Shown here piece by piece: positions 7,939 to 26,091 of a stretch of DNA of 35,069 nt (within the stretch, counting starts at the first letter, position 1; each line of letters opens with the position of its first letter). The stretch is taken from positions 1 to 35,069 of IMG/VR virus record IMGVR_UViG_3300042332_001574; one strand, given 5' to 3'. Source of the DNA: a virus. The notes under the pieces are model-generated. The model worked only from the letters and a program-made list of their open reading frames with translations, did not search any database and was not told the DNA's origin. A program made the translations under genes and the position numbers.

Positions 7939-8207
7939 GGGATCGGCTCCTCGGCGAGCTGGGCCTTGGCGACTTTCTGCACGATCGGCGGGATCGGCGG
8001 GAGGATCGGCGGGCTGTTCCGCATCAGCCACCAGATGCCATTGAGGATCCAGTCGACGTGATCGCGAAGCGATGCCTTGGCCAGAGTCTTCCACGCTTCG
8101 CGGGCCGCCAGGTCTTCGGACGTGGCCGGAGCCGGGATAGGCAGCGGATAGCGCTGCACCGGAGCAGGAGTGGTCGAGGATGGCGGCTGCGAAGTTGGTT
8201 CTGTCAT
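7935..8207 (-). CDS. Small Pro-rich protein of the late operon
   Basis: This 90-aa protein has a Pro/Ser/Thr-rich head (1-30), a charged helix (about 31-50) and an amphipathic Trp-rich segment (WILNGIWWLMRN, about 53-64), followed by more proline. No signal peptide or full membrane span is seen. It lies just upstream of the holin candidate with a GTGA overlap, so it might be a lysis accessory (antiholin) or a small tail protein. I recognise no family. Its start is set by a copy of the TTGAC-N16-ATG element. Confidence 0.6.
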   Translation of the reverse strand: MTEPTSQPPSSTTPAPVQRYPLPIPAPATSEDLAAREAWKTLAKASLRDHVDWILNGIWWLMRNSPPILPPIPPIVQKVAKAQLAEEPIP

Positions 8208-8228
8208 GACTTATGCGGGGCTCGTCAA
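8205..8228 (-). promoter_or_regulatory. TTGAC-N16-ATG element, copy at the 8207 start
   Basis: TTGAC at 8228-8224 is followed by exactly 16 bases ending GCATAAGTC and then the ATG (8207-8205) of the 90-aa protein. It is the most divergent of six copies. Confidence 0.6.
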
Positions 8229-8239
8229 CTCTCAGAGGA

Positions 8240-9154
8240 TCATCCGTCTTCGCGGCGGGCGGCGAAGTAGTCGGCGATGGCAGCCACTTGCTCCGGCTTG
8301 TCGGCGAAAGCCTGCTGAGACCAGATGGGGAGGCCGGTGTGGCGATCCGTGGCGAGGTCGGTGGTCGGATCATATTGCTGGATCAATGAGGGGAGGTCTG
8401 GGTATCGCCGGTTCTCGAGGGAACCATGCCAGAAGTGGCGGATCTCTCCGCGGATATGGCCGATGGTGCCGCCGGCGGCCGCCGGAATGCCATTGGCCCA
8501 GCGGAGGATGTCGTCGATGTGGGCGCGGCCGAGGCGGTTGACTCGCGGATGCTCGGCATGGAGGCGGCCCGTGCAGGCCAGCGCCAACAGGGTGTCCCCA
8601 TGCGAGATTGGGGAGACATACCATCCGCCAATCTGCTCGAGGAATGAGCGGCGGAACGCCCATGCGCAGCCCGGATGATACTGGACCCACTCGTCGAGGG
8701 AGTTGTGGTGGGCACCGTATCCGGTCGATGGGCGACACTCGTCATCGGCTCCCTCTGGGGTGGTGTACCGGACCCGATGCCATGGGTGAATGACCGGGAA
8801 TTCGTCGAGGGCGTCCGAGGCCTTGGCGGCCCAGTCGTCATCGAGGAACTCGATGTCGGCATCGAGGACAGCCACCTTGTCGACCTCCGGCGGGAGCGAG
8901 GCCGCGCCGATGTTGAGCATGGCCTCCTTCCACCAGAAGGCCGGGGTATCCCATGGAAGACTCAGCTCGATCTCAGTGACCAGCGGAGAATCGAATCGAC
9001 TGCCGGCAGGCAGCAGGCCCGGCGTGTCGAGAGTCAGAGAGACCAGAGTCCCCGGCACATTCTGACGGATCATGCCCGCCACGAAGCGCTCGAGGTTCCG
9101 CTGCGGGCGCTCGTACTCGCAGGGATTGTAATGGCAGGCGACCCAGTGCAGCAT
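8240..9154 (-). CDS. GT-A-type glycosyltransferase-like protein
   Basis: This 304-aa protein looks like a nucleotide-sugar-dependent glycosyltransferase. It has a Rossmann-like start (residues 1-60), a DxD metal/nucleotide-binding motif D98-A-D100 (VDKVAVLDADIEF) and an acceptor-side box (YHPGCAWAFRRSFLEQIGGW). The C-terminal half has a further conserved-looking box, EIRHFWHGSLENRRYP. No signal peptide or membrane anchor is seen, so it would act in the cytoplasm. It sits inside the tail genes, just before the collagen fibre and lectin genes. Modification of the virion's own fibre, or of host surface glycans, are both plausible. Confidence 0.75.
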   Translation of the reverse strand: MLHWVACHYNPCEYERPQRNLERFVAGMIRQNVPGTLVSLTLDTPGLLPAGSRFDSPLVTEIELSLPWDTPAFWWKEAMLNIGAASLPPEVDKVAVLDADIEFLDDDWAAKASDALDEFPVIHPWHRVRYTTPEGADDECRPSTGYGAHHNSLDEWVQYHPGCAWAFRRSFLEQIGGWYVSPISHGDTLLALACTGRLHAEHPRVNRLGRAHIDDILRWANGIPAAAGGTIGHIRGEIRHFWHGSLENRRYPDLPSLIQQYDPTTDLATDRHTGLPIWSQQAFADKPEQVAAIADYFAARREDG

Positions 9155-9158
9155 GGGC

Positions 9159-9665
9159 TTAGGTTCCGTATCCGCTGACGACGTCGCCGAAGAGCATGAC
9201 TTCGATCCGGAGATTCACCGGGCTGCTGACTGCCAGAGAGATGGCAGACGTTGCGACCGTCGAGACACCGGCCTTGCGGGTCATGGCGATGCTGTCGCCG
9301 ATGCCGAGGATGTGGGCCGCATCCTGCGGATTGAAGATGTCGGTCATGGTGACCGTGACGGCTCCGCTCGATGCCGAATCCGGATCGTAGGCCGAGACGC
9401 GGACGTGAATGCCTTTGATCTTGGCAAAGCTGGCAGCGAATCCGCTGAGCGTCTGGATGGGGACGTCGGCCAGTTCCACGGCCGGGAAGTTGTCGATCAG
9501 GTAGGTGCCTGCGGCGGTCGGCAGGAGATTGAGCTTGATGGCCGAATCGACAGCCAGCTCCACGCGGTCGCTCGCGACCCCGCGGAATGCGCCGGTGGCC
9601 CCGGCAGTGGGCGGCTGCCAAAGGAAGCCGGACTCGAAAAGGATGGAAGCGGATGGAACGATCAT
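9159..9665 (-). CDS. Hypothetical tail-tip protein
   Basis: This 168-aa protein is predicted to be mostly beta strands with many Val/Thr/Ser residues and no cysteines. It lies between the dead phosphoesterase-like protein and the glycosyltransferase in the region that encodes the tail tip. I recognise no family. Four bases separate it from the next gene. Confidence 0.65.
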   Translation of the reverse strand: MIVPSASILFESGFLWQPPTAGATGAFRGVASDRVELAVDSAIKLNLLPTAAGTYLIDNFPAVELADVPIQTLSGFAASFAKIKGIHVRVSAYDPDSASSGAVTVTMTDIFNPQDAAHILGIGDSIAMTRKAGVSTVATSAISLAVSSPVNLRIEVMLFGDVVSGYGT

Positions 9666-9677
9666 GATGCGGATGGG

Positions 9678-11081
9678 TCAGAAACCAGAGACGAGAGCCC
9701 GCAGCTGGCAGCCGCGAGGGGCCGGGCGGCCCGCGATGGGGTCGAACAGGAGAGCGGCATTGTCCCCCTCCAGAGACAGCCCATCGGGCACCACCAGAGA
9801 GACAGCAGCCCCGGGGATGAGCGGCATGCGGGCCAGATACCATGGCTCGTCGCCGTCGTTGTAGTCAGCGATGGAGACCATGACCGCACCCAGCGGAGCC
9901 GGCGGCTTGGGAGCCATCGATTGAGCCTGCACGATGGCCCCGCTGACACGCTCGCGGAATTCCCAGCGGATGGCGTCTTTGGTGACCTCGATGGCGGCGA
10001 AGCATTCAGCGGTTGGCCTGCGCTCGCTTTGCTCGAGGAGGGCCGTGGTGCCGAAGACATCAGGCGTGGATGTCGATCCGCCCACGCAGCCGGAGACATT
10101 GATGATGCGGGTGCCAGCGACCACGAAGGTCTCGGTCGTTTTGCTGTTCCCGCAGAGGATGAGATCGAAGTGGCCAGACCGGGCCAACTCGACGGCCTCC
10201 GGAAGCAGCTGGACATTGTCCTGATCCGACGGATCCGCGTAGGACACTGGCGGGTTGTGGATGACCGCGATGCGGAATCGGCTGGCCACTGCAGCCAGTC
10301 GCGTCTCCATCCAGTTCCATTGGGCAAGGTTCCGGCGGAGGACGGCGGAGGAGATCGATGGCTCGACGTCGAACCCTTCAATGCCTCCCGACAGCATAAA
10401 GACATGAGCGAGGGCGACGCCGTTGGTGTCGACCCCGAACGTGCGGTCGTAGTAATGCCGCGGAGAGCCCCCGCCGAATTCAGTCACGTATGGGAACTTG
10501 GCCGCGCAGAGGCTGAGGATGTTGTTCGCCACCAGTTCCTGCGTACCGAGAGCCGGGAGGAAGCGCTGGGCAGTGATTTCCGTGGCCCATGCCGCGGTGG
10601 CGGAGTTGAGGATGGTAGCGCCTCCCTCCCCTACCCCAGCAGCGAAGTTGCCAGCCACCAGCACAGTGGGCGATCCGAGCGCGCGGACCGATGCGATGAG
10701 TTGGTTTTGAAGCGTGCCCGGCGCATCGATGCTTCCAAAGGCCGCAAAGGACAGGCGGGTCGTGGCCCCCGGGATCCAGTCGTGAATCGGCTGGGGGACA
10801 GGCTCGAGCGAGACCGTCAGCTGCCGGACGGTCTGCAGATCGGGATTTTGGACGATCCCATTTCGAAGCCCGGAGGTCAACGAGGACGGGCCAAGGGCGA
10901 TGGAGCGGGAAGCGCCCGGCGTGGACTGGTCGGCCACCGTTGCAAAGTTGGGTCCCTCGCAGGAAATCGGCGTGCCGAATTCAACGGAGAACCGCATGGA
11001 CTGCGTGAGGTCGGCCTCGGCCGGAATGATTTCCGCGACCGTGGCGGCCCCGGCGGCGACTTTGTATCGAAACGGCTGCAT
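9678..11081 (-). CDS. Metallophosphoesterase-fold tail protein with lost metal ligands
   Basis: This 467-aa protein shows the motif order of purple-acid-phosphatase-like calcineurin phosphoesterases, but with the ligands replaced. The GD motif is GS117 (SFAAFGSIDA), GDxx is GN145 (TVLVAGNFAAG), GNHE is GTQE (179-182, RFLPALGTQEL) and GHxH is GNSK (311-314, FDLILCGNSK). Only His275 (IAVIHNPP) is kept. The linking features fit the family: YYD near 210, QWNWMETRL near 254-261, and INVSGCVGG near 327-335. An N-terminal domain (1-105) and a C-terminal beta domain (about 385-467) flank it. It is probably structural or ligand-binding. ATG 11081 is set by the upstream TTGAC-N16-ATG element; ATG 11087 is possible. 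Confidence 0.6.
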   Translation of the reverse strand: MQPFRYKVAAGAATVAEIIPAEADLTQSMRFSVEFGTPISCEGPNFATVADQSTPGASRSIALGPSSLTSGLRNGIVQNPDLQTVRQLTVSLEPVPQPIHDWIPGATTRLSFAAFGSIDAPGTLQNQLIASVRALGSPTVLVAGNFAAGVGEGGATILNSATAAWATEITAQRFLPALGTQELVANNILSLCAAKFPYVTEFGGGSPRHYYDRTFGVDTNGVALAHVFMLSGGIEGFDVEPSISSAVLRRNLAQWNWMETRLAAVASRFRIAVIHNPPVSYADPSDQDNVQLLPEAVELARSGHFDLILCGNSKTTETFVVAGTRIINVSGCVGGSTSTPDVFGTTALLEQSERRPTAECFAAIEVTKDAIRWEFRERVSGAIVQAQSMAPKPPAPLGAVMVSIADYNDGDEPWYLARMPLIPGAAVSLVVPDGLSLEGDNAALLFDPIAGRPAPRGCQLRALVSGF

Positions 11082-11102
11082 GCCCATTGCTGGGCGCGTC
11101 AA
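11079..11102 (-). promoter_or_regulatory. TTGAC-N16-ATG element, copy at the 11081 start
   Basis: TTGAC (11102-11098) is followed by 16 bases ending GCAATGGGC and the ATG at 11081-11079. It fills nearly the whole gap after the upstream stop. Confidence 0.65.
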
Positions 11103-11105
11103 TCA

Positions 11106-11909
11106 TCAGGGGCCGTATCGGCGGACCCATTCGTAGTCCGCTTCCCACATCTGGAGCTTGCGGTCGCCGAGTATGTACTCGGCCATGACCCGGTGCGACC
11201 CCGTCCACCATCCATCCCCGCCAGACGGCAGGCCCTCGGCATAGGTGACGAGTGGGTCCGGCATGGCCTGCCAGTTGATGGCCGTGGGGTCGGCTGTGTA
11301 GGGGTTGGGCAGGTTGAGAGTGGGCGGCTTGAACGTCTGGTTGCGGGTCGCGAGGAACGATCCGCGGACGCTGTACGTGTAGCGCCGGCCGAGGAGGCGG
11401 ACCCGCCATGGCTGGGCAGTCAGGGCGACGGATGTTCCACCCGTCTGGAAGACGCCGACCTGACGGATGCCGTTGCCCGGCGGCGCGTAGGGAGCCGGAA
11501 GGATGACCGTTACCCCGTCGCGTTCCTGTGGCCAGAGGGATTCCTCCGGGGAGACACCGAGGTCGATGCTGTTGACCCGGACCCCGGTGCCCAGCAGCCC
11601 GATCCCATTGAAGGCGAGAGGCGGCGACGAGTAGCCAGCCCACTGGAGATCGGCGATGAGGTAGCCGAACCGGGACTCGCGGACGGTCGGGCCTGCGTAG
11701 AAAAGTTCCCGGGACGACCCGAACCCCGGAGCATTCTGGGCCCCGAGGTCGTAGAGGTTGTTGAGCTGGCTGATCGATCCGCGGAAGCAGATGGTGGCGG
11801 AGAGGGTATCGAACCCGCGCGGATTCGGCTGGAGCACGGGATCGGTTTCCCAGTCCCATCGGCCGCCGCCGCCGGCCACGTTTGAGAGATCGTAGTCTTC
11901 GAGGATCAT
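11106..11909 (-). CDS. Probable distal tail protein
   Basis: This 267-aa protein is encoded directly after the tape measure with an ATGA overlap, the place of distal tail or minor tail proteins. It is rich in Gly, Trp and aromatic residues and looks mainly beta, with GGGGRWDWETDPVLQPNP near the start and an aromatic C terminus (MWEADYEWVRRYGP). I recognise no specific family; the assignment rests on position. Confidence 0.6.
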   Translation of the reverse strand: MILEDYDLSNVAGGGGRWDWETDPVLQPNPRGFDTLSATICFRGSISQLNNLYDLGAQNAPGFGSSRELFYAGPTVRESRFGYLIADLQWAGYSSPPLAFNGIGLLGTGVRVNSIDLGVSPEESLWPQERDGVTVILPAPYAPPGNGIRQVGVFQTGGTSVALTAQPWRVRLLGRRYTYSVRGSFLATRNQTFKPPTLNLPNPYTADPTAINWQAMPDPLVTYAEGLPSGGDGWWTGSHRVMAEYILGDRKLQMWEADYEWVRRYGP

Positions 11910-13459
11910 AGTCGGTCCACTGGCTTAGAGTTGATCGCCTCCAGCTTCTGATTCACGGCAGTGAGTTCCTGCACCATCTTGGGTCCCCAATCGTTGAGCG
12001 CCTTGGTGACCGGGTCCCCAGCCGTTGCATTGGCCCGGGAGCCAGCGGCGGCAGACGCTTCTTTTTTCGGGCGGTTCTTTTCCTGCATTCCCTTGTATGC
12101 GTCGAGGCTGGTGAAGGACCATTCTTCGTTGAGCGAAGAGAGGTCCTTCCGATACATCATTTCATCGTATGCAGCAAGACCACGAAGGCCCGTATCGGCT
12201 TCCCCCTTGTACGTTTTCCGGCGACCGGAAGCGATTGCCTTGTTCAGGGACGTTTCTTCAGATGCCATAGCTGCTGCCTGATCTGGCGACATGCCAGCAG
12301 CCTCCAGTTGCGCGCGGCGGGCCGTCTCCGCCTGCTTCTGCTGCAGCTCATCGGCCTTCTTGTTTTTGCCAGCAGCGCGGAGCCGCAGGACTTCGAGCGA
12401 TGCCATGGCCTCATCCCGCTGTGGTTTCGTGGCTGCCAGTTGCGCATCTTTGGCTGCCTGCGTGGCTGCCTCCTCGTCGTCCTTCACCTTTTGCTCGGCC
12501 AGCCGTTTTTGCTCGGCCTCGGCCGCGGCCAGTTCTTCGCGGAGCCTCTTTCGGCGCGCCAGTTCTTCTTCGCTGGGCTGGTACTTGGCGATCATGTCCT
12601 CGCCAGTGGCAGCCTCGGTCAGTGACTCGAGGGAGAGGCCCTCGCCCTGCAGCAGCTTCATGGCTTCGCCCGTGAGGGCCCCGATGATGCCGGCGGTCTT
12701 CCCACCGGTCATGCCGATCCGCTTCTGATCGAGCGCGTCCTTGAAGTTGTCGACCTTGTCCTGCGCGGATTCTGCAGCCTGCGGAAGCTGCTTGAGTTCC
12801 TTGATGATTCCGCGGACCCATTCGAGCGCATTCCCCTTGGGGACGCGGGCCGCCAGCTCGAGGAAGCCCGGGATGCGGGTGGCGATCTCCTTGAGGTTTT
12901 CCATGTCCACCTGCCCCGTCGAGATCATCGACTGGATGGACATGAGGACATCATTGAGTTCCGCCTTTCCTTTGCCCGCATTGGTCAGCGCATTCCCGAA
13001 CGCCACCAACGCCTCACGGGCCTCGGCAGCGGAGAGCTTGGCGCCCTTGAGGGCGGTGGCACCTTGGATGGCTTCGCGGAATCCGAGGCCTGGCATCTTG
13101 GCGACCTCGCGGAGGGCCTCGAGTTCCTCCCGCAGGGTCTCCGATCCGTCACTCGTCGAGGACAGACCGCGCACCAGATTCTCGAATGATGCCTCGGCAG
13201 AAAACATCGATTTCCCCATGGCCACCGCGCTGCCGCCCACCATCTTCAAGCCGCCTCCGATGACATTGATCTTGCTGCTCAGCTCCGTCCATCGGCCCAC
13301 CGCAAACCCCTCCCCGGCAAGGGCCCCCTTGCTGATTTTCATCTGCTCGAGCCCAGCCTTGAATGCGCCCGCGTCCTGCTTGGCACCGTCGAGCGCAGCC
13401 TTGAATCCGCGCTTATCGAGAGTGAGCTGGGCACCGATGGATGATTTGCGGCCGGCCAT
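11906..13459 (-). CDS. Tape measure protein
   Basis: This 517-aa protein sets tail length and helps DNA ejection. The N-terminal third (about 85-215) carries the lambda-type tape-measure domain with runs such as REVAKMPGLGFREAIQG and MSIQSMISTGQVDMENLKEI. A Gly/Ala-rich hydrophobic stretch near 60-90 may insert in membrane. A long Glu/Ala/Lys/Gln coiled coil spans about 290-400. At about 1.5 angstrom per residue it predicts a tail of roughly 75-80 nm, short for a siphovirus. It is preceded by the frameshifting chaperone gene and followed by tail-tip genes, as in lambda. Confidence 0.9.
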   Translation of the reverse strand: MAGRKSSIGAQLTLDKRGFKAALDGAKQDAGAFKAGLEQMKISKGALAGEGFAVGRWTELSSKINVIGGGLKMVGGSAVAMGKSMFSAEASFENLVRGLSSTSDGSETLREELEALREVAKMPGLGFREAIQGATALKGAKLSAAEAREALVAFGNALTNAGKGKAELNDVLMSIQSMISTGQVDMENLKEIATRIPGFLELAARVPKGNALEWVRGIIKELKQLPQAAESAQDKVDNFKDALDQKRIGMTGGKTAGIIGALTGEAMKLLQGEGLSLESLTEAATGEDMIAKYQPSEEELARRKRLREELAAAEAEQKRLAEQKVKDDEEAATQAAKDAQLAATKPQRDEAMASLEVLRLRAAGKNKKADELQQKQAETARRAQLEAAGMSPDQAAAMASEETSLNKAIASGRRKTYKGEADTGLRGLAAYDEMMYRKDLSSLNEEWSFTSLDAYKGMQEKNRPKKEASAAAGSRANATAGDPVTKALNDWGPKMVQELTAVNQKLEAINSKPVDRL

Positions 13460-13462
13460 GGA

Positions 13463-14118
13463 TCAGAGGTTGAGGGCTTCGAGCTGAGAGCGGACAGCCG
13501 CCTCGCGGGCGGCCCTTTCGGAGTTGGTCAGACAGTCGACTCCGGCAGCGTGGAGTCGGGCATGCATGCTGGCATGCACTTCTCGCAGAGACATTCGGTG
13601 GAGCACGTAGTCGCGGCGGGCGGGGTCTCCATTGGTGAGGATGTTGACGTAACACTCAGTCCAATGGGGAGCGGTTCCGTTTTTTTTTGCGGAGCGTCTC
13701 CGATTGGCGTGGCCATGGTTGCGTGGCCGTCGACCCACAGCTGCAGGGCAAGTGCGAGGGCTTCTCCTTCCTCATTGTGGCGGATGGCGGAGGCTGCCCA
13801 CGTAGCGATGGCGCGCCGGAGGCTGACAGGATCCATGCCGAGCGGGAGGGCGGAGTCGCTGCCATCCTCATGCTCCGGAGTGCGTGGGGACCAGAAGTGC
13901 TCCGTGGGATGGGCGCAGACGTACAGGAAGACAAGCGCTTCCGAGAGAGTCTGCGGGATCGAGGTGGTGGCTCCGGCGTCGTAGTATTCCGCCTTGCCCG
14001 CGATCGTGAGGCGCCAGGGGAATCGGGAGATCAGCGGCTTCTCGAGATTGACCACCGGGGCCGGGGCGGGCGTCGGCGCGGCCATGAGAGGATGCTGGGG
14101 GAACGAGTGGAATGTCAT
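13463..14118 (-). CDS. Tail assembly chaperone, -1 frameshift long form (GT-like)
   Basis: Ribosomes that slip back one base in the nine-A run (13688-13680) leave the 196-aa frame after GDAPQKK. They read on as NGTAPHWTECYVNILTNGD and stop at 13463, giving 218 aa. The extension (about 75 residues) is basic and helical and ends four bases before the tape measure start. This is the lambda G/GT arrangement, where the T extension recruits tail tube protein to the tape measure. The 0-frame product ends at 13528. Confidence 0.8.
13528..14118 (-). CDS. Tail assembly chaperone, 0-frame form (G-like)
   Basis: This 196-aa protein is made without frameshifting. Residues about 25-145 form the conserved part (LEKPLISRFPWRLTIAGKAE, then a helical region with FLYVCAHPTEHFW). 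The 0-frame tail after the slippery site is Thr/Ser/Cys-rich and ends in STLPESTV. Unusually, this tail is about 50 residues long; in lambda the unshifted product ends soon after the slip. It overlaps the upstream gene by ATGA. Confidence 0.75.
   Translation of the reverse strand: MTFHSFPQHPLMAAPTPAPAPVVNLEKPLISRFPWRLTIAGKAEYYDAGATTSIPQTLSEALVFLYVCAHPTEHFWSPRTPEHEDGSDSALPLGMDPVSLRRAIATWAASAIRHNEEGEALALALQLWVDGHATMATPIGDAPQKKTEPLPIGLSVTSTSSPMETPPAATTCSTECLCEKCMPACMPDSTLPESTV
13678..13690 (-). promoter_or_regulatory. Slippery sequence for -1 frameshifting
   Basis: On the minus strand nine consecutive A (13688-13680) are read as CAA AAA AAA ACG in frame 0. After a -1 slip they are read as AAA AAA AAC GGA. 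The A-AAA-AAC end is a classic bacterial slippery heptamer. It lies in the tail chaperone gene just upstream of the tape measure, where frameshifting is conserved in siphoviruses. Confidence 0.8.
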
Positions 14119-14957: not shown

Positions 14958-14967
14958 GATGCGAAAC

Positions 14968-15001
14968 GGGGACCGCCCCCGGAAATCCAGAAGCGGTCCC
15001 C
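14968..15001 (-). terminator. Hairpin after the tail tube gene, possible attenuator
   Basis: On the minus strand GGGGACCGC (15001-14993) pairs with GCGGTCCCC (14976-14968), a perfect 9-bp G+C-rich stem, followed by GTTTCGC. The T tract is weak, so partial termination or 3'-end protection of the tail tube mRNA is more likely than full termination. Confidence 0.5.
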
Positions 15002-15018
15002 TTCCTTCTCAGCGAGTT

Positions 15019-15486
15019 TTAGACCGCATCGCTATCTTGGATGATCTGGACATCGGTGGTCGGGCTCCAGCGGAGCGTGAGTTCGAAGGTCACCTTCTGG
15101 AGTTCCGCCGGCGTGGCCGTGCGGGACGGGTTGCCCATGACCCAGATACCCGAGGTCGGGAACCCGTGGCTGAGGTTGCTGGTGTATGGGGCCACCGTTG
15201 CTGGCGAGAGCGCAGCGCCCGGGTGGGCATTGGACATGGCGTCGGATACCGTCAGATTCTCGGCGTCGACGTTGGCCTTGATCTGCGGATTGGACATGAT
15301 GTCCACGATGCCTTCGTGCCCGCGGTGGTCCTTTTTCCGGACCACGTCGCGCGTGGGAGACACCGCAAACGAGTTGAGCAGCAGGCCCGCGATGGGGGCC
15401 GCGACCCCGAAGGCGAACTGAGAGAAAGAGGCCGCGGATGTGCGGACCACAGCGGCCGCGAGCGGGTTGATGGGAGTGGCTGGCAT
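15019..15486 (-). CDS. Probable major tail (tube) protein
   Basis: This 155-aa protein is mainly beta. Its central stretch (VVRKKDHRGHEGIVDIMSNP, about 50-69) and long loop resemble phage tail tube monomers. Three points support the call. It lies between the tail terminator region and the chaperone/tape measure pair. It is preceded by a strong copy of the TTGAC-N16-ATG element. A hairpin follows it, as expected for a gene expressed far above its downstream neighbours. ATG 15486 is chosen by the element; a TTG at 15507 lies inside the element. Confidence 0.6.
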   Translation of the reverse strand: MPATPINPLAAAVVRTSAASFSQFAFGVAAPIAGLLLNSFAVSPTRDVVRKKDHRGHEGIVDIMSNPQIKANVDAENLTVSDAMSNAHPGAALSPATVAPYTSNLSHGFPTSGIWVMGNPSRTATPAELQKVTFELTLRWSPTTDVQIIQDSDAV

Positions 15487-15507
15487 GCCCTTTGCGCTGC
15501 CCGTCAA
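15484..15507 (-). promoter_or_regulatory. TTGAC-N16-ATG element, copy at the tail tube start
   Basis: TTGAC (15507-15503) follows the upstream TGA directly. After 16 bases ending GCAAAGGGC comes ATG (15486-15484). Its extension past ATG (CCAGCC) is shared with the copy at 23165. Confidence 0.7.
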
Positions 15508-16533: not shown

Positions 16534-16540
16534 GATGGAA

Positions 16541-17826: not shown

Positions 17827-17841
17827 TTTTTTCCGGGAGCG

Positions 17842-17870: not shown

Positions 17871-17878
17871 GAAATCTG

Positions 17879-18268
17879 TCAGACGTGGCGCTCCACTTCG
17901 ATGCGCCAGTGGCTGTGGAATGAGGACCTGTCCGCGGAAACGATCCGGAACTTCGCCGGCGGCTTGGCCGGATCCGCTGCCCACTGGTACGAGGCATTCC
18001 GGACGGCAGAACCGAAGAGGATGATGTCGTCGGGTCGGGGATCGTATGGGATCGAGGCCGCATCGACCTCGATGGTGCGGGAGTCCGTCGCCATCTTGAG
18101 GAGACCCGCGGCATCGCCATTGCGACCGCGGACGGCCGACGACGTGCAGGGCAGGACGAGCGTGTAGTCCGTGCCGCCGCGGGAGGTCGGGAAGAATGCG
18201 AAGGTCCCATGGCCGAAGACCCGCTGGGTCTCCTGCCGGAGGAATCGAAATGTTGAGAGCGGATTCAT
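17879..18268 (-). CDS. Probable head-closure protein
   Basis: This 129-aa protein is beta-rich, with SADRSSFHSHWRIEVERHV at the C terminus and a DDIILFGSAVRNASYQW box in the middle. The size, fold impression and place (after the capsid genes, before the tail-completion candidate) fit head-closure/stopper proteins such as lambda gpFII. ATG 18268 is chosen; reading further upstream would run into the terminator hairpin. Confidence 0.55.
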   Translation of the reverse strand: MNPLSTFRFLRQETQRVFGHGTFAFFPTSRGGTDYTLVLPCTSSAVRGRNGDAAGLLKMATDSRTIEVDAASIPYDPRPDDIILFGSAVRNASYQWAADPAKPPAKFRIVSADRSSFHSHWRIEVERHV

Positions 18269-18274
18269 GAGAGG

Positions 18275-18315
18275 AAAAGAAAAGCCCCCGACCCGGACGA
18301 ACCGGTGCCGGGGGC
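18275..18315 (-). terminator. Intrinsic terminator between capsid genes and neck genes
   Basis: On the minus strand GCCCCCG (18315-18309) pairs with CGGGGGC (18290-18284), with an inner CCGG/CCGG pairing, and TTTTCTTTT follows. It lies inside the late operon, seven bases before the head-closure start. Capsid mRNA would thus be more abundant than neck and tail mRNA unless late transcription is antiterminated. Confidence 0.75.
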
Positions 18316-18317
18316 CA

Positions 18318-18327
18318 ACCAAACCAA
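18318..18327 (+). other. Orphan ACCAAACCAA copy next to a hairpin
   Basis: The plus strand has the fourth exact copy of ACCAAACCAA, two bases after the terminator stem. The order (hairpin, then ACCAAACCAA) is that of the three gene leaders, but no believable plus-strand gene follows. It may be a relic, or chance. Confidence 0.4.
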
Positions 18328-18343
18328 AGGTTGGGTGAGTGTG

Positions 18344-18877: not shown

Positions 18878-18906
18878 GATGGTAATGCTTCAGCCGATCG
18901 GATGGA

Positions 18907-19821
18907 TCAGGCGGAGACGATGCGCTTGAGGCCAGCGGACTCGATGACACCAAATCCGTAGGCGCACTCGATGATGCTCTGAACGGTGTCGAGAGCCGGG
19001 TTGCCCCACTCGCGGTAAGTGAGGATGAAGGTCTGGTCTTCATCCATGTACTGCTCGTAGGCGGTGAGCTGGTCGCGGACGCCAGCGGCCGGAGCCACGG
19101 GGGCCATGGCAATGCCGATGGCGCTAGGGACAGCAATGAACCCGACGAGGTTCTGCGCATTCGCCGGAACCTTCGCCCCGCCGTAGTAGCGGAACCCGAG
19201 CAGGTCTGGAACCGTGCCGGTGCGGACGGCATCCGGGCTGCCGTAGTTCATGCTGCCAATGACACCGGAATCGGTGATGAGCTTGGCATGGTAGGCAGGA
19301 TTGAGCACGAGGCTGCGGCTGCCTTCGGGGAATTCCGCTTCGATGGCAGCCTGCTGGAGGGTAGCCACGACGCTCATCGCCATCGATGCAGCCGAGCCGG
19401 TGTAGGCGGCCGCGCCGAAGTTGGCCGACGTGATGCTGCTGGCGATGTCGTCACTGACATCGGCCACCAGCTTGAAGACCTTCTGGGCCATGATCTCATC
19501 GGTCAGAAGACCGGGCTGATCGCGGACGTCCTGCGAGCTGTATCCAAGGGACTGGTACTTCCGCTTGTTGACGGTGATCGGCTTGGCGGAGACGGTGCCA
19601 TCGCCAGCGACGTATCCATTGGCGGCGTTCCAGTCCACCGAAGTGGCGGATTCCAGAGGGACGTATGGGACGGCGACGACGTTGGTGCCTTCAAGGCGGA
19701 CCGGGGTTTCGCTGACTTTGTAGGCGAAGGCCCGGATCATGCTGAGCCGGGGTTTGAGAGCGCGGACGATCTCAGAGAGAACCGCTTGGCGCTTGAGATT
19801 GGAGTCGATGATGGCTGCCAT
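18907..19821 (-). CDS. Major capsid protein
   Basis: This 304-aa protein forms the capsid shell. It has the order of phage coat proteins: an N-terminal helix (DSNLKRQAVLSEIVRALKPR), a strand-rich E-loop region (about 45-100), a spine-helix region with IMAQKVFKLVADVSDDIASS, an NPAYHAKLITD stretch in the P domain (about 173-183), and a final strand (IECAYGFGVIESAGLKRIVS). The position after protease and scaffold candidates supports this. The protein lacks a long N-terminal delta domain, which fits use of a separate scaffold protein. No Shine-Dalgarno site precedes the ATG. Confidence 0.8.
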   Translation of the reverse strand: MAAIIDSNLKRQAVLSEIVRALKPRLSMIRAFAYKVSETPVRLEGTNVVAVPYVPLESATSVDWNAANGYVAGDGTVSAKPITVNKRKYQSLGYSSQDVRDQPGLLTDEIMAQKVFKLVADVSDDIASSITSANFGAAAYTGSAASMAMSVVATLQQAAIEAEFPEGSRSLVLNPAYHAKLITDSGVIGSMNYGSPDAVRTGTVPDLLGFRYYGGAKVPANAQNLVGFIAVPSAIGIAMAPVAPAAGVRDQLTAYEQYMDEDQTFILTYREWGNPALDTVQSIIECAYGFGVIESAGLKRIVSA

Positions 19822-19856
19822 GATGCTGGATGGTTATGGGCTGGGCGTGGTGGTGA

Positions 19857-20486
19857 TCAGTTTTTGCCGAAGATCCGGTCTTTGTGCTTGGCGAGGAAGT
19901 CCTGCCGTTCCCGGATGGATTTGCAGTTGGCGAGCTGCTCTTCGAGTTCCTTGAGGCTGGCAGCTTCGGAAGACGTGGCGGCAGGGATAGTGACTGCGGG
20001 GACACCGAGGGAGCGGACAGCAGCGCCTACTCCTTCGGACACCGCGGCTTCGAAAGCGGCGGCGGGATTGGAAGCGGCATTGGCTCCGTGTCCCTGACTC
20101 TGCAGCCACGCGCCGATCCTCTCAAGGTCTGCGCGCTGGGCGGCCACTTCCTGCTGGAGGGCGGCGATGGTGGCATCGCGATCGGCAACAGCGGCGCGCA
20201 GATTGGTCAGCTCGGCCTCGTGACCGGCGATGGTGGTGGCCAGTTGCTTCTTGCTGGAGGCGTAGGCGGCGATGCGGGAGAGGAAGCCGGGTTCTCCTTC
20301 TTCCTCCTTCCGGGCCGCCGGCGCAGGGGTTGATTCAGGCCCCTGCGCCGGGGCTGGTGCTGGAGCGGCTGGCGTAGATGCCGCGGGTCCTGGTGGCGTA
20401 GCAGGAATCGGTTCTTGAGCAGAGGCATTCCCAATGAGGAAAGCGATAGCAGCGGCGGCTGCGAGAAACTTGATGTGATGGCGCAT
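19857..20486 (-). CDS. Scaffold-position protein with an N-terminal signal peptide
   Basis: This 209-aa protein lies between the S49 protease and the capsid gene, where scaffold proteins usually are. Its body fits a scaffold: a Pro/Ala linker (25-62), a coiled coil (about 75-135, KQLATTIAGHEAELTNLRAA onward) and a helical, basic C terminus (LEEQLANCKSIRERQDFLAK and on) that could bind coat protein. The N terminus is odd: it is a textbook Sec signal (MRHHIKFLAAAAAIAFLIGN, then ASA and QEP). The frame stays open upstream for ten codons to an ACA that occupies the ATG position of a TTGAC-N16-ATG element, so the start may have moved. Confidence 0.65.
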   Translation of the reverse strand: MRHHIKFLAAAAAIAFLIGNASAQEPIPATPPGPAASTPAAPAPAPAQGPESTPAPAARKEEEGEPGFLSRIAAYASSKKQLATTIAGHEAELTNLRAAVADRDATIAALQQEVAAQRADLERIGAWLQSQGHGANAASNPAAAFEAAVSEGVGAAVRSLGVPAVTIPAATSSEAASLKELEEQLANCKSIRERQDFLAKHKDRIFGKN

Positions 20487-20513
20487 GTGGTAGGCGGTGG
20501 CTGGTGCGGTTCT

Positions 20514-20537
20514 TGTGTCCTTTGCGCACCGCGTCAA
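20514..20537 (-). promoter_or_regulatory. TTGAC-N16 element with ACA in place of ATG
   Basis: TTGAC (20537-20533; it includes the stop of the S49 gene) is followed by 16 bases ending GCAAAGGAC, then ACA (20516-20514) where other copies have ATG. The ACA is in frame with the scaffold-position gene, whose first ATG lies ten codons on. Confidence 0.65.
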
Positions 20538-21388
20538 AGCAGAGCCCCGAGGAATTCCTCGAAGGTCGGAATCGAGGCGGAGTCGACCAGACCAGACGGG
20601 GCCAGCCGGGCTTCCCATGCCTGCCCCTGCATGGCGGCCGCGGTGATTCCGCGGCGCTCAGCCATCCAGCCTTTGAATTCGTCGCTGTAGGTCTGCACCA
20701 TTTGGCGCATGTGGGCATCGTGGGCATCCGTGATCGGCCCAGCGCCGAGGCCCTTGAGGGCTGAGTCGGCAGTGTAGACTCGTTTTTCCACTCCGAGCTT
20801 GGCCCAGAATCCGGAGGCATCCGAGAGACTGGCGATGGTGCCGATGCTGCCGACGTATGCGCCCGGCGCAGCATGGATGGCATCGGCCGCGGCGGCGAGA
20901 TACATGCCAGCCGAGGCTGCGAGCCGCTGCGAGTATGCGATGACCTCGACTCCGGGCCGCATGGCCGAGATGCTGCGGAGGGCATCGGCTGCGGCGCGGA
21001 GGCCGAGGACGGATCCGCCAGGTGTGTCGAGCTGGAGGATGAGGGCGGAGATCTGCGGATTGCTCGCCACCGTGCGGACTGCTTGATGGATCCGGTCGAG
21101 GTTGAAGACGCCATACCAGTCTTCCATCTCGGGAGATGCACCGGAGACGATGACGCCATTGATGGGCTGGATGGCGACGACCCGCGCGCCCAGCTGCAGA
21201 AGGCGGAGAGCGTTGGGATGGCCTTGGACATCTTCATCAGCTGCTCCGCGCGAGGATTCCGCCCGGATGCGGACACGGCCCGCGAGGTAGTCCTGCATAA
21301 GCATGGGGACGTCGACGGCGACCGGATGGCTGGCCAGAGAAGCGAGGCCGAAAGCGGAGAGGAAATTTTCGATATTTTGCAGGGTCAT
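20534..21388 (-). CDS. S49-family (SppA/gpC-like) capsid maturation protease
   Basis: This 284-aa serine protease is of the ClpP/crotonase-like S49 class, used by lambda-like phages to process scaffold and portal proteins during head maturation. Visible family features are VVAIQPINGVIVSG (70-83), LILQLDTPGGSVLG (116-129), the catalytic serine S159 in RLAASAGMYLAAAADAI, and VGSIGTI (179-185). It follows the portal gene, and the scaffold candidate follows it, as in lambda C/Nu3. The start is the ATG one base after the 29-bp repeat. Confidence 0.85.
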   Translation of the reverse strand: MTLQNIENFLSAFGLASLASHPVAVDVPMLMQDYLAGRVRIRAESSRGAADEDVQGHPNALRLLQLGARVVAIQPINGVIVSGASPEMEDWYGVFNLDRIHQAVRTVASNPQISALILQLDTPGGSVLGLRAAADALRSISAMRPGVEVIAYSQRLAASAGMYLAAAADAIHAAPGAYVGSIGTIASLSDASGFWAKLGVEKRVYTADSALKGLGAGPITDAHDAHMRQMVQTYSDEFKGWMAERRGITAAAMQGQAWEARLAPSGLVDSASIPTFEEFLGALL

Positions 21389-21389
21389 C

Positions 21390-21418
21390 GGAAAAAGTTG
21401 GTACAGATGTGTGACAGT
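21390..21418 (-). repeat. 29-bp repeat, copy 2 (upstream of the S49 gene)
   Basis: This copy is identical to 17842-17870. It fills the gap between the portal stop (TGA at 21420-21418) and the S49 start (21388) and overlaps the portal stop by one base. No Shine-Dalgarno site is present, so the repeat itself is the only leader available for translation. Confidence 0.8.
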
Positions 21419-22881
21419 CAGGATTGAGGCGGCGGAGACCCTGCCGATGGCATTAGGAGGGAGGGGTCGATGCCGGCCGCGGCGCATTGCTCCTGGGCAA
21501 ACTTGAGTTCCGCGACCCTCTGCTTGATCTGGTCCTGCCACGTCTCGCCCTGCTCGCCGTATTCCATGGCCCATGTGGTGAGGCCGGTCTCGAGTCGGCT
21601 GCGCTGGGCGGCCGCGTCGCGGCCTTCGTCGATGGTGACGCTGCGCGGGTAGTTGATGGCATGCCGCCACCACCGAGGGTCCTTGGGCCGTGGGACCTGC
21701 CGGGTGCGGATGGCATACTCGACGCGGCGGATGTAGTCGACGACGGCGAAGCCCACCTGCTTGTCGAGCCATGTGAGCCGCCACTCCTGCGCTTGACGGA
21801 GCACAAAGCGAACCCCGGGGCCGGTGAGCTTGTCGAGCATGAACAGCAGCTCCACCGGGACCCCGAGGCCCATGGCGATCTGGGCGTAGATGTCGTTCTT
21901 GATAGCCGCCTGCGACGGGAAATCGCGGCCGTCGGTGAGCGCCTTGATCGAGGCGCCTGGCGGGAGATTGGCAATCTCGCCCCGGTCGACGACCTCGTTG
22001 ATCTTCCGCGGGATGCTGGCAGATGCCGGAACCCCGGGCATGGGCCGGGTGCCGCCCTCGGCCAGATTGTCGATGCGGCTTTTGCCCGAGAGCGGATTGA
22101 TGTCTGCCACAACGGCTCCGGCCTGACGCTCGACGACCAGCCCGAAGAGGCCGTGGACTTTCAGGATCTTGCGGAGGTCGTTGTCGATTTCCCGGTAGTC
22201 GAGGATCTGACTGATCGCGTGGATGAGGGCCGGGGTCCCGCGCGTCGATGAGTGGGTCTCGTAGTTCGCGAAGAGGTGGGCCGCGGCGGCTGGAATGACG
22301 ACATCGGAGCCGGAGGACGATTCCGAGCGGATGTTGTAAGCGAGGTGGCGGTAGTTGGGGCCGAGGCGGACGCCGTCGCTCCATTCGTCGCCTGCGCCAC
22401 GCGTCGGATTGTCGACGAGAGCAGACTCGACCGCCACCACGATGGGCGCGCCGGTGGCATCGGTGGCATGGACTGCTAGCATGTCCCCGTCGCGGAATGT
22501 GCTGAAAAGGGCATTGGTCAAAAACTCGGCAGCAGTGAATTTCCCGGTGGCGTCGTAGGCTCCCGGCCTGCGCTCGTAGGTCTCGGTCCACCACTCCTGC
22601 AGGGCAGCATTGAAAACCGGATCGGTGGTGGCTGGGCGGATGCTGATGGATCCGACCCATCGGGCGAGGTCGCGGGTGGCCTTGCGCGCCGGCGGGATGT
22701 TCCACGCTGCCCACTGGGATCGGCGGCGGGCTTCGCGACGGGTGTATTCCTTGAACTGCTGCTTTCCCGAGAGATTCGGGAACCAGATGTATCCGCGATC
22801 CTGCGAGTCGTCGGCCGAGGCGATGCCGGACGTCCATGCCGCAGGGGCAATCTCTTCTGCGATGTCGGATGGTGGGGTCAT
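21418..22881 (-). CDS. Portal protein, lambda family
   Basis: This 487-aa protein forms the dodecameric DNA channel at one capsid vertex. Family features include an early RREARRRSQWAAWNIPPARK stretch (about 48-67), a region with EWWTETYERRPGAYDATGKF (about 93-112) and the LVDNPTRGAGDEWSDGVRLG loop. The MGLGVPVELLFMLDKLTG helix-loop and a final Gln/Ala helix are also typical of lambda gpB-type portals. It overlaps the gpW-like gene by ATGA and precedes the protease, as in lambda. Confidence 0.85.
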   Translation of the reverse strand: MTPPSDIAEEIAPAAWTSGIASADDSQDRGYIWFPNLSGKQQFKEYTRREARRRSQWAAWNIPPARKATRDLARWVGSISIRPATTDPVFNAALQEWWTETYERRPGAYDATGKFTAAEFLTNALFSTFRDGDMLAVHATDATGAPIVVAVESALVDNPTRGAGDEWSDGVRLGPNYRHLAYNIRSESSSGSDVVIPAAAAHLFANYETHSSTRGTPALIHAISQILDYREIDNDLRKILKVHGLFGLVVERQAGAVVADINPLSGKSRIDNLAEGGTRPMPGVPASASIPRKINEVVDRGEIANLPPGASIKALTDGRDFPSQAAIKNDIYAQIAMGLGVPVELLFMLDKLTGPGVRFVLRQAQEWRLTWLDKQVGFAVVDYIRRVEYAIRTRQVPRPKDPRWWRHAINYPRSVTIDEGRDAAAQRSRLETGLTTWAMEYGEQGETWQDQIKQRVAELKFAQEQCAAAGIDPSLLMPSAGSPPPQS

Positions 22882-23165
22882 TGGATGCGTCGGAAGGAGA
22901 AGTCGACTCCGGAATTGACCGGGCTGCGCACGAGATCAGGATTTGCCCCGGTGGAGGATTGCTTGAGGTAATCGAGCGCGGCATTGCAGTCCTCGATGAT
23001 CTGGCCTGCGTTCTCGATGCTGATGGTCATCGAGGAGCCCTCGTAGTTCCGGGTGGTGGTGCCGCCTTCCATGCGGACATCGAGGGCCACCTTGCGGATG
23101 CCCGCAATGTCCTCGGCGGAGTAGGTTTCCGCGAGAGCGCGGACGGTGGAGGGATCGGCTGGCAT
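22878..23165 (-). CDS. gpW-like head-tail joining protein
   Basis: This 95-aa protein lies between large terminase and portal, the place of lambda gpW. It has an N-terminal helix (STVRALAETYSAEDIAGIRK), a basic beta hairpin (VRMEGGTTTRNYEGSSMTIS) and a second helix (GQIIEDCNAALDYLKQSS), the alpha-beta-beta-alpha order of gpW. It is about 25 residues longer than gpW because of a C-terminal extension. The start is fixed by a TTGAC-N16-ATG element; the next gene overlaps by ATGA. Confidence 0.7.
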   Translation of the reverse strand: MPADPSTVRALAETYSAEDIAGIRKVALDVRMEGGTTTRNYEGSSMTISIENAGQIIEDCNAALDYLKQSSTGANPDLVRSPVNSGVDFSFRRIQ

Positions 23166-23186
23166 GTCCTTTGCGGGCGGGGTCAA
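23163..23186 (-). promoter_or_regulatory. TTGAC-N16-ATG element, copy at the gpW-like start
   Basis: TTGAC (23186-23182) contains the stop codon of the large terminase gene. After 16 bases ending GCAAAGGAC comes ATG (23165-23163). Confidence 0.7.
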
Positions 23187-25213
23187 ACCTGCGTTTGCTC
23201 GTCCTGCTCGACGGCATGGATGAGGACGAGGCCGTACTTGAGGAGGTCGGCCATGTCGTTGGGGCGCGCGGCGTTGCGCTTCCGCCATCGCAGCTCGCGG
23301 ACGTTGCCCTTGTTGGGCTTGTCGTAGAAGTGCTCCATGTTGCCAATCTCGGCGAGGATGTCGTCTGGCGTGTCGATGGGCAGATGGATGGCGGGCCGGG
23401 TGCTCCGGCCGTCGGCGGCCTTGGCGATCCGCTCGATGTGCAGCTCGTGCTCCCAGTGGTCGGCCTTGATGCCGATGAGGCGGACAAGGCATGCCTCGCC
23501 GAAGGCGGTGCGGCCCTGATATTCCTTGGTCCATCGGGGAGAGACCCGAGCCATGCGGTCGGTCGCGGCGGACCGCCCGCGGATGCCGACCCACCGGGTG
23601 GATCCGCCATGCGTCGACCCGCCCATGGCTGCGAGGAAGCCGGTCACGAGGTCCTCCCGATACCCGGTGTCGATGCAGGCGATGGCGACGGTCCACGGAT
23701 TGTCCGGGTCGTCGCGATCCTTGAACGGCCGGGCCTCGATGACGGATGGGAGGTCCTCGAGTTCCGGGACCGTCCCCCAGTCGAGGACCCATTCGGATCC
23801 GTCCCACCCGGCGGCAAAGATCGCCCATTTCACTTCGCCGATCTGGCCGACGTCATTCCCCTGCCCCCGCTGCACGTCGGCGGTGAGGCCGAGGAAGCGG
23901 ATCTCTGCGGAATTGAGCGGGATGGTGAGTGCTGGCTGACCATCCCACTTGAGTCGGCGGTACCCTCGGCGGAGCTTGGCGACAGCTTCGTCCGCGGGCC
24001 GCTTGGTCTGGTAGCGCGCGAACGGGCGGCCGAGGAACTCGGTGTGGAAGGCTTTGATGCTGGCCTCCGATCCAGCCTCGCTGGCATCGATGAAGGCATT
24101 GGCAATGGCTCCCCAGCGTCGGGACGCGAAGGCTTGATTCAGCAGGGAGGAAACCGCGAGGGAGCGATGCGCGACGGCGGGACTGAGGTTCTGGGCGACG
24201 AACCGGCGGCGGGCGATCATGTCGCCCTTCGCGGATTCGTCGATCCGTTCTTTGCAGCCGGCGCATTCGTAGTAGGTCTCGGTGAGAACGCGGTCGCGAT
24301 TCCACACCGGGCGCGAATCGGCCTCGGCGAACGGGAGGGATTCCTTGCAGTGGCCGAAACGCAAACCTTCGAAGACCAACTCTTGCCAGTGGCCACAGTG
24401 GGGACATGGAACCTCGCAGCGCTCCTGCGTCCCTCGGAGGTAGGAGGAATGGATGACGGTCTCGCGAGTCACCACCGGGACGCGGCGGCCGGTGATGGGG
24501 TCCTCCTCGTAATCGAGGGCGTCGTCCGGAGTGGAAAACGCGAGGAGGCGGGCGTCGTCGTCGCCGGTGATCCGGCCCTCGAGGAGGGTGAGGGACGGCA
24601 TGCCATCGATGAGGTCGTGCTTCGCCACTTCGTCCGCGATGCTGATGGAGGCTGGCTTCGAGATGAATTCGGAAGCGGACTGGCCACCCCCGAGGTAAAG
24701 GGTCCCTCGGGAGTACCGGAGGGCCATGGCAGTGGAGGTCTTTTCATTCCGCTCGGCGCGCAGCTCCGGGTATGCGTCGAGGACTGGCGAGAGACGGTCG
24801 CGGGCAAAGTCGCGGGCCTGCTGCCGGCAGTCGGTCACGAAGATCATGTTGCCGCCTCGATACCTTGCCCACCAGGCCAGCCCATGGAGGGCGATGGATG
24901 AGCAGCCGGACTGGGAGTCTTTGATGACGCAGGCGGTGCGGTTTCTGATCGGTCGCTTCGAGCCGTCGGCAAAGACGACTTCGGTGGTCGGCTCGCGGAG
25001 GAATTCGAAGACCCAGTCGGCGAGGACAGAGAACTGGGAGAATTCCCAGACCTTCCCGGCGGCTGCAGCCATGCGGTTGTGCTGGGCCGGGATCGGGAGT
25101 CGGTGGCCTTCGACCCAGTCCCGGATGCGGGGCTCAGGCTCGAGGACAGGATGCGAGCGGATCAGTTCGATCCAGCTGCCCACCAGGCCGAGATGGATGC
25201 GCCGGTCGCTCAT
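23183..25213 (-). CDS. Terminase large subunit, GpA family
   Basis: This 676-aa motor packages DNA into the prohead using ATP and cuts the concatemer. The N-terminal ATPase shows a GpA-type P-loop variant (KDSQSGCSS, about 98-106) and a Walker B-like ISIADE (D194, E195). Two Cys pairs (CPHCGHW and CAGC) mark the zinc-binding insertion common in GpA terminases. The C-terminal RNase H-like nuclease carries acidic residues in GLTADVQRGQG and ACIDTGYRED. GpA terminases usually cut at cos sites. It overlaps the upstream gene by ATGA. Confidence 0.92.
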   Translation of the reverse strand: MSDRRIHLGLVGSWIELIRSHPVLEPEPRIRDWVEGHRLPIPAQHNRMAAAAGKVWEFSQFSVLADWVFEFLREPTTEVVFADGSKRPIRNRTACVIKDSQSGCSSIALHGLAWWARYRGGNMIFVTDCRQQARDFARDRLSPVLDAYPELRAERNEKTSTAMALRYSRGTLYLGGGQSASEFISKPASISIADEVAKHDLIDGMPSLTLLEGRITGDDDARLLAFSTPDDALDYEEDPITGRRVPVVTRETVIHSSYLRGTQERCEVPCPHCGHWQELVFEGLRFGHCKESLPFAEADSRPVWNRDRVLTETYYECAGCKERIDESAKGDMIARRRFVAQNLSPAVAHRSLAVSSLLNQAFASRRWGAIANAFIDASEAGSEASIKAFHTEFLGRPFARYQTKRPADEAVAKLRRGYRRLKWDGQPALTIPLNSAEIRFLGLTADVQRGQGNDVGQIGEVKWAIFAAGWDGSEWVLDWGTVPELEDLPSVIEARPFKDRDDPDNPWTVAIACIDTGYREDLVTGFLAAMGGSTHGGSTRWVGIRGRSAATDRMARVSPRWTKEYQGRTAFGEACLVRLIGIKADHWEHELHIERIAKAADGRSTRPAIHLPIDTPDDILAEIGNMEHFYDKPNKGNVRELRWRKRNAARPNDMADLLKYGLVLIHAVEQDEQTQV

Positions 25214-26070
25214 GCCACGAGGAGGTCTTTGATGGTATCAGGTGATGCCGCGAATGCCGACCGGACGGCCTCGACGGCCACGTCCCGCGGGACGTGCGGA
25301 ACCAGCCCAGCCACAATGGACTGGGCGAGCGCCGGAAGGAACCGGACGAGGGCGGAGTTGACCTCGGCAGGATCGAGCAGCTCCCGCATTTTCTCGGCCC
25401 GGGACCGCTGCATGATCAGCAGCTCCGATGCCTCAGACCACCGGCGGCGATGCACTCCCTGCGCAGCCTCGGATTCCCCGGTCGCGACCGCCTGCAGGTA
25501 GCGCTGATGCAGCCGGGCCTCGTCATCCTGCAGCCTCGCGATGACGGACCGAGTCGAGAGATCAACCTCTGGCGCATCAATGACCGGAGGTGGCGGAGGA
25601 GGAACCGGATCGGCGACGGCCGCCGCGGGAGCCGGGGCCGATTGCGCCGGCGGAGCCGAGGCCCGCGCGGCAGCCTCGATCAGAATCTCAGGGACGGCAT
25701 GCTTGAGATGCCCAGCCTCGCGCATCTGCTGATACCAGAGGATCATTTGCTCCGGATTGCCCAGCGGGGCCGGGATGCCTTGTTCCGCGCCCAGCTTCCG
25801 CCAGCGCTGCAGCCGACGCTCGACGGCGAGCGAGCGCTCCTCGCAATACAGATGCAGGTAGGCAGCCGTACCGCGGACATGCGCCGCGCCCGGCTCGAGC
25901 CGAAACCCATCCGCCGGAGCCGGGTCGGCCACAGGTCCAGCCGAGCGGTCGACCAGCTCGAGATACCGCGCCCACTCGCGCGTGTCCGGTAGGACCTTGC
26001 CACGACTGACCAGAGCCTCGAGGGCCCGCAGCTCAGCAGCCTCCCGCGGAGACAGAGTCGATTGATCCAT
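25210..26070 (-). CDS. Probable terminase small subunit
   Basis: This 286-aa protein is called from position (first gene of the late operon, overlapping the large terminase by ATGA) and composition. It has a helical N-terminal region (1-70), an Arg/Trp-rich helical segment (EERSLAVERRLQRWRKLGAE), and an Ala/Pro linker (about 136-165). A C-terminal coiled coil (about 175-230) and final helical domain follow. The NPEQMILWYQQMREAG stretch may be a DNA-binding helix pair. It is longer than most small subunits. No sequence signature is decisive. Confidence 0.6.
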   Translation of the reverse strand: MDQSTLSPREAAELRALEALVSRGKVLPDTREWARYLELVDRSAGPVADPAPADGFRLEPGAAHVRGTAAYLHLYCEERSLAVERRLQRWRKLGAEQGIPAPLGNPEQMILWYQQMREAGHLKHAVPEILIEAAARASAPPAQSAPAPAAAVADPVPPPPPPVIDAPEVDLSTRSVIARLQDDEARLHQRYLQAVATGESEAAQGVHRRRWSEASELLIMQRSRAEKMRELLDPAEVNSALVRFLPALAQSIVAGLVPHVPRDVAVEAVRSAFAASPDTIKDLLVA

Positions 26071-26091
26071 GCCCTATGCGCGCCGCGTCAA
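26068..26091 (-). promoter_or_regulatory. TTGAC-N16-ATG element, copy at the first late gene
   Basis: TTGAC (26091-26087) is followed by 16 bases ending GCATAGGGC and the ATG at 26070-26068. It is the only copy that does not follow another gene directly. Confidence 0.7.

Follow-up and report, generated by a model that had tools for sequence, protein, structure and literature searches.

The 35,069-nucleotide IMG/VR virus record IMGVR_UViG_3300042332_001574 (G000; analyzed at its full length and referred to below as the window) is a tailed temperate phage, whose late operon on the minus strand carries a short bipartite element, TTGAC-N7-GCAWAGGRC-A, at six places, all of them at gene starts. 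An initial annotation of the window had listed these six minus-strand copies, and all positions and sequences proved correct. Copy 1 (TTGACGCGGCGCGCATAGGGCATG, 26068..26091) lies directly before the putative small terminase (TerS) gene at 25210-26070, with the ATG at the position of the final A, hereafter +1. Copy 2 (23163..23186) precedes a small gene located after the large terminase (TerL) gene, at 22878-23165 and in gpW-like position, copy 4 (15484..15507) a 155-aa gene at 15019-15486, which occupies the position of a major tail protein (function putative; AlphaFold model of low confidence), copy 5 (11079..11102) a 467-aa gene at 9678-11081, and copy 6 (8205..8228) a 90-aa gene at 7935-8207. 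Copy 3 (TTGACGCGGTGCGCAAAGGACACA, 20514..20537) has ACA in place of ATG, as the initial annotation had noticed; ACA is no start codon, and the gene following this copy starts at ATG 20486, 30 nt downstream, with an N-terminus, MRHHIKFLAAAAAIAFLIGNASAQ, that by eye resembles a signal peptide. As judged from the comparison with related phages given below, the element may well be a compact, phage-specific internal late promoter that sets the RNA 5' end at an invariant A.

The combination TTGAC-N16-ATG was found five times compared with 0.86 occurrences expected on both strands, a number reached in none of 100 shuffles, and the full pattern with up to three mismatches was found six times compared with 0.20 expected. 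To avoid the bias of a motif defined by eye, a weight matrix was built from 14 sites of the relatives G003, G004, and G006 only and applied to the window in both orientations. The six copies alone stood out, with scores of 22.6-28.7 and a 10-bit gap to the next-best site (12.6), and the best score in 100 dinucleotide-preserving shuffles was 19.9, below the weakest of the six. The scan thus placed every element of the window in the late operon; the early region and the early promoter had none. An excess over shuffled sequence and presence in relatives, the two points on which the initial annotation had made the repeat depend, are therefore both observed: none of the 100 shuffles reaches the weakest copy, and the element recurs at the same late junctions in related contigs. 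Exact-pattern matches in unrelated viral contigs (L005, L007, L009-L010, and L012-L017) look like single chance matches and were discarded.

The copies had further been described as nearly filling the gaps they occupy. This holds for four of them, at 23183/23165, 15508/15486, and 11106/11081 and less so at 8240/8207, but neither for copy 1, which is preceded by ~540 nt of non-coding DNA including the cos site, nor for the ACA copy with its 47-nt gap. Likewise, the other late junctions are not uniformly tight, as several element-free gaps of 29-75 nt are present, before 19821, 18877, 18268, 17826, 14957, and 13459. The TGA stop codon of the upstream gene lies inside the copies at 23186 and 20537, and other copies have a stop close by. 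We read the stop codon within the element as packing, because the stops of the relatives sit elsewhere while the element keeps its place. Two other interpretations of these overlaps were rejected. An RF2-type frameshift at CTTTGAC does not fit, because copies 1, 4, 5, and 6, like the elements of several relatives, have no TTGAC at a stop, and a conserved peptide FDxxRKGH read across the element is contradicted by frames and stops that vary among relatives; it is therefore the DNA that is conserved, not a peptide.

Relatives of the window TerL (66-100% identity) are encoded on 13 contigs, and the resulting family comprises ~14 contigs, all related members being metagenomic and some near-identical. 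By their element, two clades are distinguished, clade A (the window, G002, G003, G004, and G005/G006) and clade B (G007, G008, G010, and G013). Comparing the upstream regions of orthologous genes allowed the alignment of 41 element sites, 26 from clade A and 15 from clade B, which are related by descent rather than independent events and to which at least four different junctions contribute. The clade-B element, TTGAC-N7-GTGRAAAGTG-A, is one base longer than that of clade A. Within the family the element precedes the small gene that follows TerL, the gene with the signal-peptide-like N-terminus upstream of the capsid gene, and the 155-aa gene, as well as the 467-aa gene or its positional counterpart. 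The TerS junction is restricted to clade A, as no homologous start could be aligned in clade B, and the 90-aa gene is likewise listed for clade A; copy 1 is conserved in G002, G003, G004, and G005/G006. Every copy in one genome follows the version of its clade, so that the box words shift as a set (GCAWAGG to GTGRAAAGTG), as expected of one trans-acting reader shared by all copies.

Within the element, conservation is confined to two boxes lying approximately one helical turn apart, separated by a 7-base spacer that is free in sequence and 87% G+C. Between the window and G002, 11 of 42 spacer positions differ compared with 2 of 90 box positions (Fisher p 5.6e-5). Insertions between TerL and the small gene provide a natural control: a ~1.1 kb DNA-methyltransferase-like gene occupies this place in G007 and G008 and another gene in G013, and in all three contigs the element is still located directly before the ATG of the small gene, preceded by different stops. 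From these alignments, the element belongs to the downstream gene. The methyltransferase-like insertion in G007 (L024, 3594-4742) and G008 (L025) is apparently accompanied by a duplicated 3' end of TerL.

The base at the position of the A of ATG is an A in all 26 clade-A sites, nine of which lack an ATG there, and the equivalent position is an A in 15 of 15 clade-B sites. The ACA of copy 3 is kept in G002, G003, G004, and G005/G006 despite diverged spacers, and four more clade-A sites without ATG at +1 read AAG, AAA, AAT, and AGC; at the nine sites the ATG of the gene follows 1, 6, or 26-32 nt downstream. Measured from this A, the ATG of the 41 sites lies at an offset of 0 (23 sites) or else 1, 6, or 25-32 nt (16 sites in the last range), and the offset is never negative. 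In clade A, 25 of 26 sites have a C or T before the A, and a pyrimidine before an A is the usual context of bacterial transcription starts. Since the offset varies at the non-ATG copies, a site fixing the RNA 5' end fits better than a translation signal, which should keep its distance to the ATG. For the former it suffices that the ATG lies at or after that end, and an offset of zero would thus give a leaderless mRNA.

Shine-Dalgarno pairing of at most -5 kcal/mol is found at 7 of 10 early genes and at 2 of 24 late genes, both of the latter arising from G-runs of terminator stems. Duplex energies with the anti-Shine-Dalgarno at element starts range from -2.8 to +0.7 kcal/mol, i.e., there is almost no pairing, and the earlier statement that AAGG lies too close to the ATG for a Shine-Dalgarno sequence was right. 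Late genes that lack the element (for example 19821, 16533, 14957, and 18877) often have CATC or a similar C/A-rich leader before the ATG, also without Shine-Dalgarno. Two hairpins resembling intrinsic terminators, with U-rich or pyrimidine-rich tails, are encoded on the minus strand. The one at 18269..18343, with a U-rich tail (-35 kcal/mol, z -4.4 compared with shuffles; retained in 8 sequences, with compensatory change at two pairs), closes the cassette of the major capsid gene, which begins at copy 3. The other, at 14958..15018 (-34.1 kcal/mol, z -4.3; retained in 6 sequences, with both sides changed at six pairs), directly follows the 155-aa gene of copy 4. Upstream of copy 1, by ~60 nt, a putative 12-nt cohesive end (cos, AGTTTCCCGACC) is located at 26152..26163 on the minus strand; the contigs G002, G004, and G006 end exactly at AGTTTCCCGACC, which G002 has at both ends. 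Farther upstream, ~250 nt from TerS and between 26612 and TerS, a block at ~26300-26360 on the minus strand (CTTWCAnACCT...TTGAGATAWTCCAGAA) is conserved and contains an extended -10-like TGAGATAWT.

We infer from these sequence comparisons that transcription would start at the invariant A, the clade-A element then having TTGAC at -21 to -17 and GCAWAGG at -9 to -3, with the free, GC-rich spacer of 7 bp between them, a pyrimidine at -1, and the A at +1. TTGAC would be bound by a factor, either encoded or modified by the phage, that takes over the -35 contact, and the A/W-rich GCAWAG would act as a weak, -10-like melting box for host RNA polymerase. With the ATG on +1 the mRNA would be leaderless, and otherwise it would carry a leader of 1-32 nt (mostly 25-32 nt) devoid of a Shine-Dalgarno sequence. 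Internal copies would initiate transcription anew ahead of certain late cassettes, and two of these cassettes close with strong predicted terminators. As a candidate for the factor we consider a 280-aa protein with a C-terminal helix-turn-helix (32717..33559, minus strand). Only two early proteins of the window are matched in G013, a clade-B contig with otherwise different early genes, namely an XRE-like protein and this helix-turn-helix protein. The latter appears to be the better candidate of the two, because the region of its recognition helix differs by clade (SRQAxQxR compared with S/T-REAVRVR), as the element does; it is a lead.

Several observations weigh against such a promoter. The geometry of the boxes fits no known promoter class, being too close for sigma70 and misplaced for sigma54. 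No sigma70 pair (TTGACA/TATAAT 16-18 bp apart) exists at any copy, with one in 20 kb compared with 2.2 expected, which agrees with the earlier judgement that TTGAC is no normal -35. A search for a single-subunit RNA polymerase gave no PF00940 match in eight records, with the search's own control silent as well, and none in family scans. The argument for the candidate factor is its conservation, and its AlphaFold model is of low confidence. Lastly, the TGAGATAWT block may be an ordinary late promoter, with the elements then acting on RNA. A T7-like promoter (TTGAC-N7-GCAWA/GG on a -17 to +1 layout) was considered separately and set aside: a gene for the polymerase did not turn up, in a search whose control was silent, and T7-type promoters are sequence-specific in the stretch where the element has its free spacer.

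Because the TGAGATAWT block is a possible ordinary promoter, an explanation by RNA processing stays alive, in which one long late transcript starting upstream of cos is cut by an endonuclease at each element to release leaderless or short-leader mRNAs. It accounts for a fixed 5' end with a downstream-only ATG equally well as a promoter does, and the single late promoter that it requires could lie in the conserved sigma70-like block upstream of TerS. However, a distance of approximately one helical turn between the boxes, bridged by a spacer of free sequence and 87% GC, suits DNA recognition, no RNA hairpin consistent across the copies is seen by inspection, and a cut at the first copy would remove only a leader, so that we regard processing as unlikely. 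The initial annotation had also offered a translation-initiation module, which in its present form would act in the RNA, close to the start codon, through recognition by a factor of phage or host origin, similar to the Start Associated Sequences (SAS) of other phages. An ATG exactly 16 nt past TTGAC at five independent junctions of the window speaks for such a module, as does the resemblance of box 2 (AWAGGRC) to the SAS consensus GGGATAGGAGCCC and GGGAAAGGACCCC (PMC3203893, PMC7302621). It is weakened by nine clade-A sites and about as many clade-B sites that hold the element with the ATG 1-32 nt away, by the virtual lack of anti-Shine-Dalgarno pairing at the copies, and by a GC-rich spacer that would occupy the ribosome-binding region, and we consider it improbable.

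A repressor operator or roadblock, comparable to the stoperators of phage L5, would consist of oriented asymmetric sites that halt elongation in the lysogen. The copies are indeed asymmetric, oriented with transcription, located in short intergenic gaps, and class-specific in sequence, which is stoperator-like behavior (PMC9283540). However, the early region and the early promoter beside the repressor gene are free of copies, and a roadblock leaves the exact zero offset of the ATG at several independent junctions unexplained; this explanation therefore appears rather improbable still. Finally, an origin by chance, or as a recombination linker that regulates nothing (the mosaic linker of the initial annotation), is very hard to reconcile with the data. 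Compact phage genomes reuse junction sequences, and the similarity of two clade-B leaders (GAAGCCAAC) points to some copying from one junction to another. Nevertheless, no shuffle matches the copies, the boxes are held while spacers diverge much faster, the element is conserved over TerL identities of 66-100%, and it changes in concert between clades. An element that sets the RNA 5' end thus appears to fit the data better than a translation module or a linker, and of the proposals made earlier the unusual late promoter is favored by the comparison, since neither the conserved A nor the boxes are lost at sites whose start codon is 1-32 nt farther downstream.

The remaining gene content of the window is that of a temperate phage. 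An integrase (2437-3639, minus strand), a repressor-like helix-turn-helix gene (685-1152, plus strand), and an early operon (34.6 to 26.6 kb, minus strand) are accompanied by the late genes, all on the minus strand: besides TerS these comprise a GpA-type TerL (23183-25213), the portal (21418-22881), an S49-type head protease ending at 20534, the capsid (18907-19821), the tape measure (11906-13459), a collagen-like fibre (5772-7424), and an endolysin (3885-4415). The phage further encodes a sliding clamp-like protein (DNA polymerase III beta; 31248-32666, minus strand). Beside the repressor-like gene, a probable early promoter is located at ~660-699 on the minus strand (TTGACG-N17-TTTGAT), with a palindrome, GATTC-N7-GAATC, in its spacer. 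By far the best match of the window integrase is that of Akkermansia phage DTMo-2021a (30% identity, E 3e-26), and the late gene order is identical in Akkermansia phage Moulinsart and the window. For these two reasons the host is probably a verrucomicrobiote; the phage is probably one of soil Verrucomicrobiota. Searches with TerL and integrase profiles identified no prophage relatives in 84,980 genomes.

Little is known about the timing of late genes in Verrucomicrobiota phages, and repeated start-associated elements in phages have gone unexplained since 2011. The family described here offers a clean case, with a bipartite element, an RNA 5' end predicted to the single base, boxes from two clades, and natural controls in the form of non-ATG copies and inserted genes. 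If the promoter interpretation is true, the family would provide an additional promoter geometry together with a switch of late genes to leaderless translation. More tentatively, phages of Verrucomicrobiota might use an as yet undescribed promoter architecture. In it, a short specificity box would be centred at approximately -19, the GC-rich spacer would run directly up to a weak melting box at -9 to -4, and a phage-encoded factor would take part in the reading, with largely leaderless late mRNAs, late translation off Shine-Dalgarno, and lineage-specific words on one geometry.

Among known systems, the late promoters of phage P1 share with the window element that several promoters have a phage-specific box near the -35 contact position. 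The P1 Lpa operator is centred near -22, and P1 late promoters keep a normal -10 and have leaders. In the window, the second box (GCAWAG or, in clade B, GTGRAAAG) does not resemble TATAAT and, if the element is a promoter, leaders would be absent from many mRNAs; the activator, Lpa in the case of P1 (PMC8198154), is here only a candidate. The stoperators of L5 and other cluster A phages (PMC9283540) resemble the element in being asymmetric, oriented sites in short intergenic gaps that are class-specific between phages, but they also occur at early promoters and in the early region, whereas the window element has no early sites, a fixed relation to +1 or ATG, and another sequence.

The initial annotation knew of no described element that matches, a statement that needs a qualifier, since the SAS found in cluster K mycobacteriophages (PMC3203893) and in Microbacterium phages of cluster EF (PMC7302621) represent a phenomenon of the same kind, the closest one described. 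Their function is still called ill-defined, and the associated ESAS are thought to include a promoter (PMC3203893, PMC11373665, PMC7302621). SAS and the window element are both short asymmetric repeats a few bases from the start codons of a subset of genes, in one orientation and conserved in relatives, with a similar core, AWAGGA, and in the window the repeat lies directly upstream of several start codons, five of six copies at the same ATG offset. We nevertheless do not class the element as SAS, because its consensus, its Shine-Dalgarno pairing, and the restriction to non-structural genes all fail. The SAS consensus (GGGATAGGAGCCC / GGGAAAGGACCCC) has no TTGAC box and GCAWAGGRC shares only its AWAGG core; SAS contain a good AGGAG Shine-Dalgarno, whereas the window element has none (+0.7 to -2.8 kcal/mol); and SAS precede non-structural genes, whereas the bipartite TTGAC-N7-GCAWAGG copies are all located in the structural/late operon, some of them far from an ATG.

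A parallel in layout is present in phage Moulinsart (ON453896, L070), where a repeat, AAAGAGACGG-N6-ATATAG with variants, stands before TerS, the gene after TerL, the protease, the gene at 10632, and the fibre gene (positions 468, 2785, 4640, 10607, and 15314), and recurs in related gut contigs (L080-L108). No description of this late-junction repeat was found in the literature searched. Its ATG is at a fixed offset of 25 at three junctions and farther away at others. The spacing equals that of the window element (GACG-N6-ATATAG-N4-ATG compared with GACG-N6-GCATAG-N3-ATG), whereas the box sequences differ, ATATAG being nearer to a TATAAT-like box. We take the Akkermansia phage repeat as a second case of the same geometry written in different words, the likeness being one of layout only.

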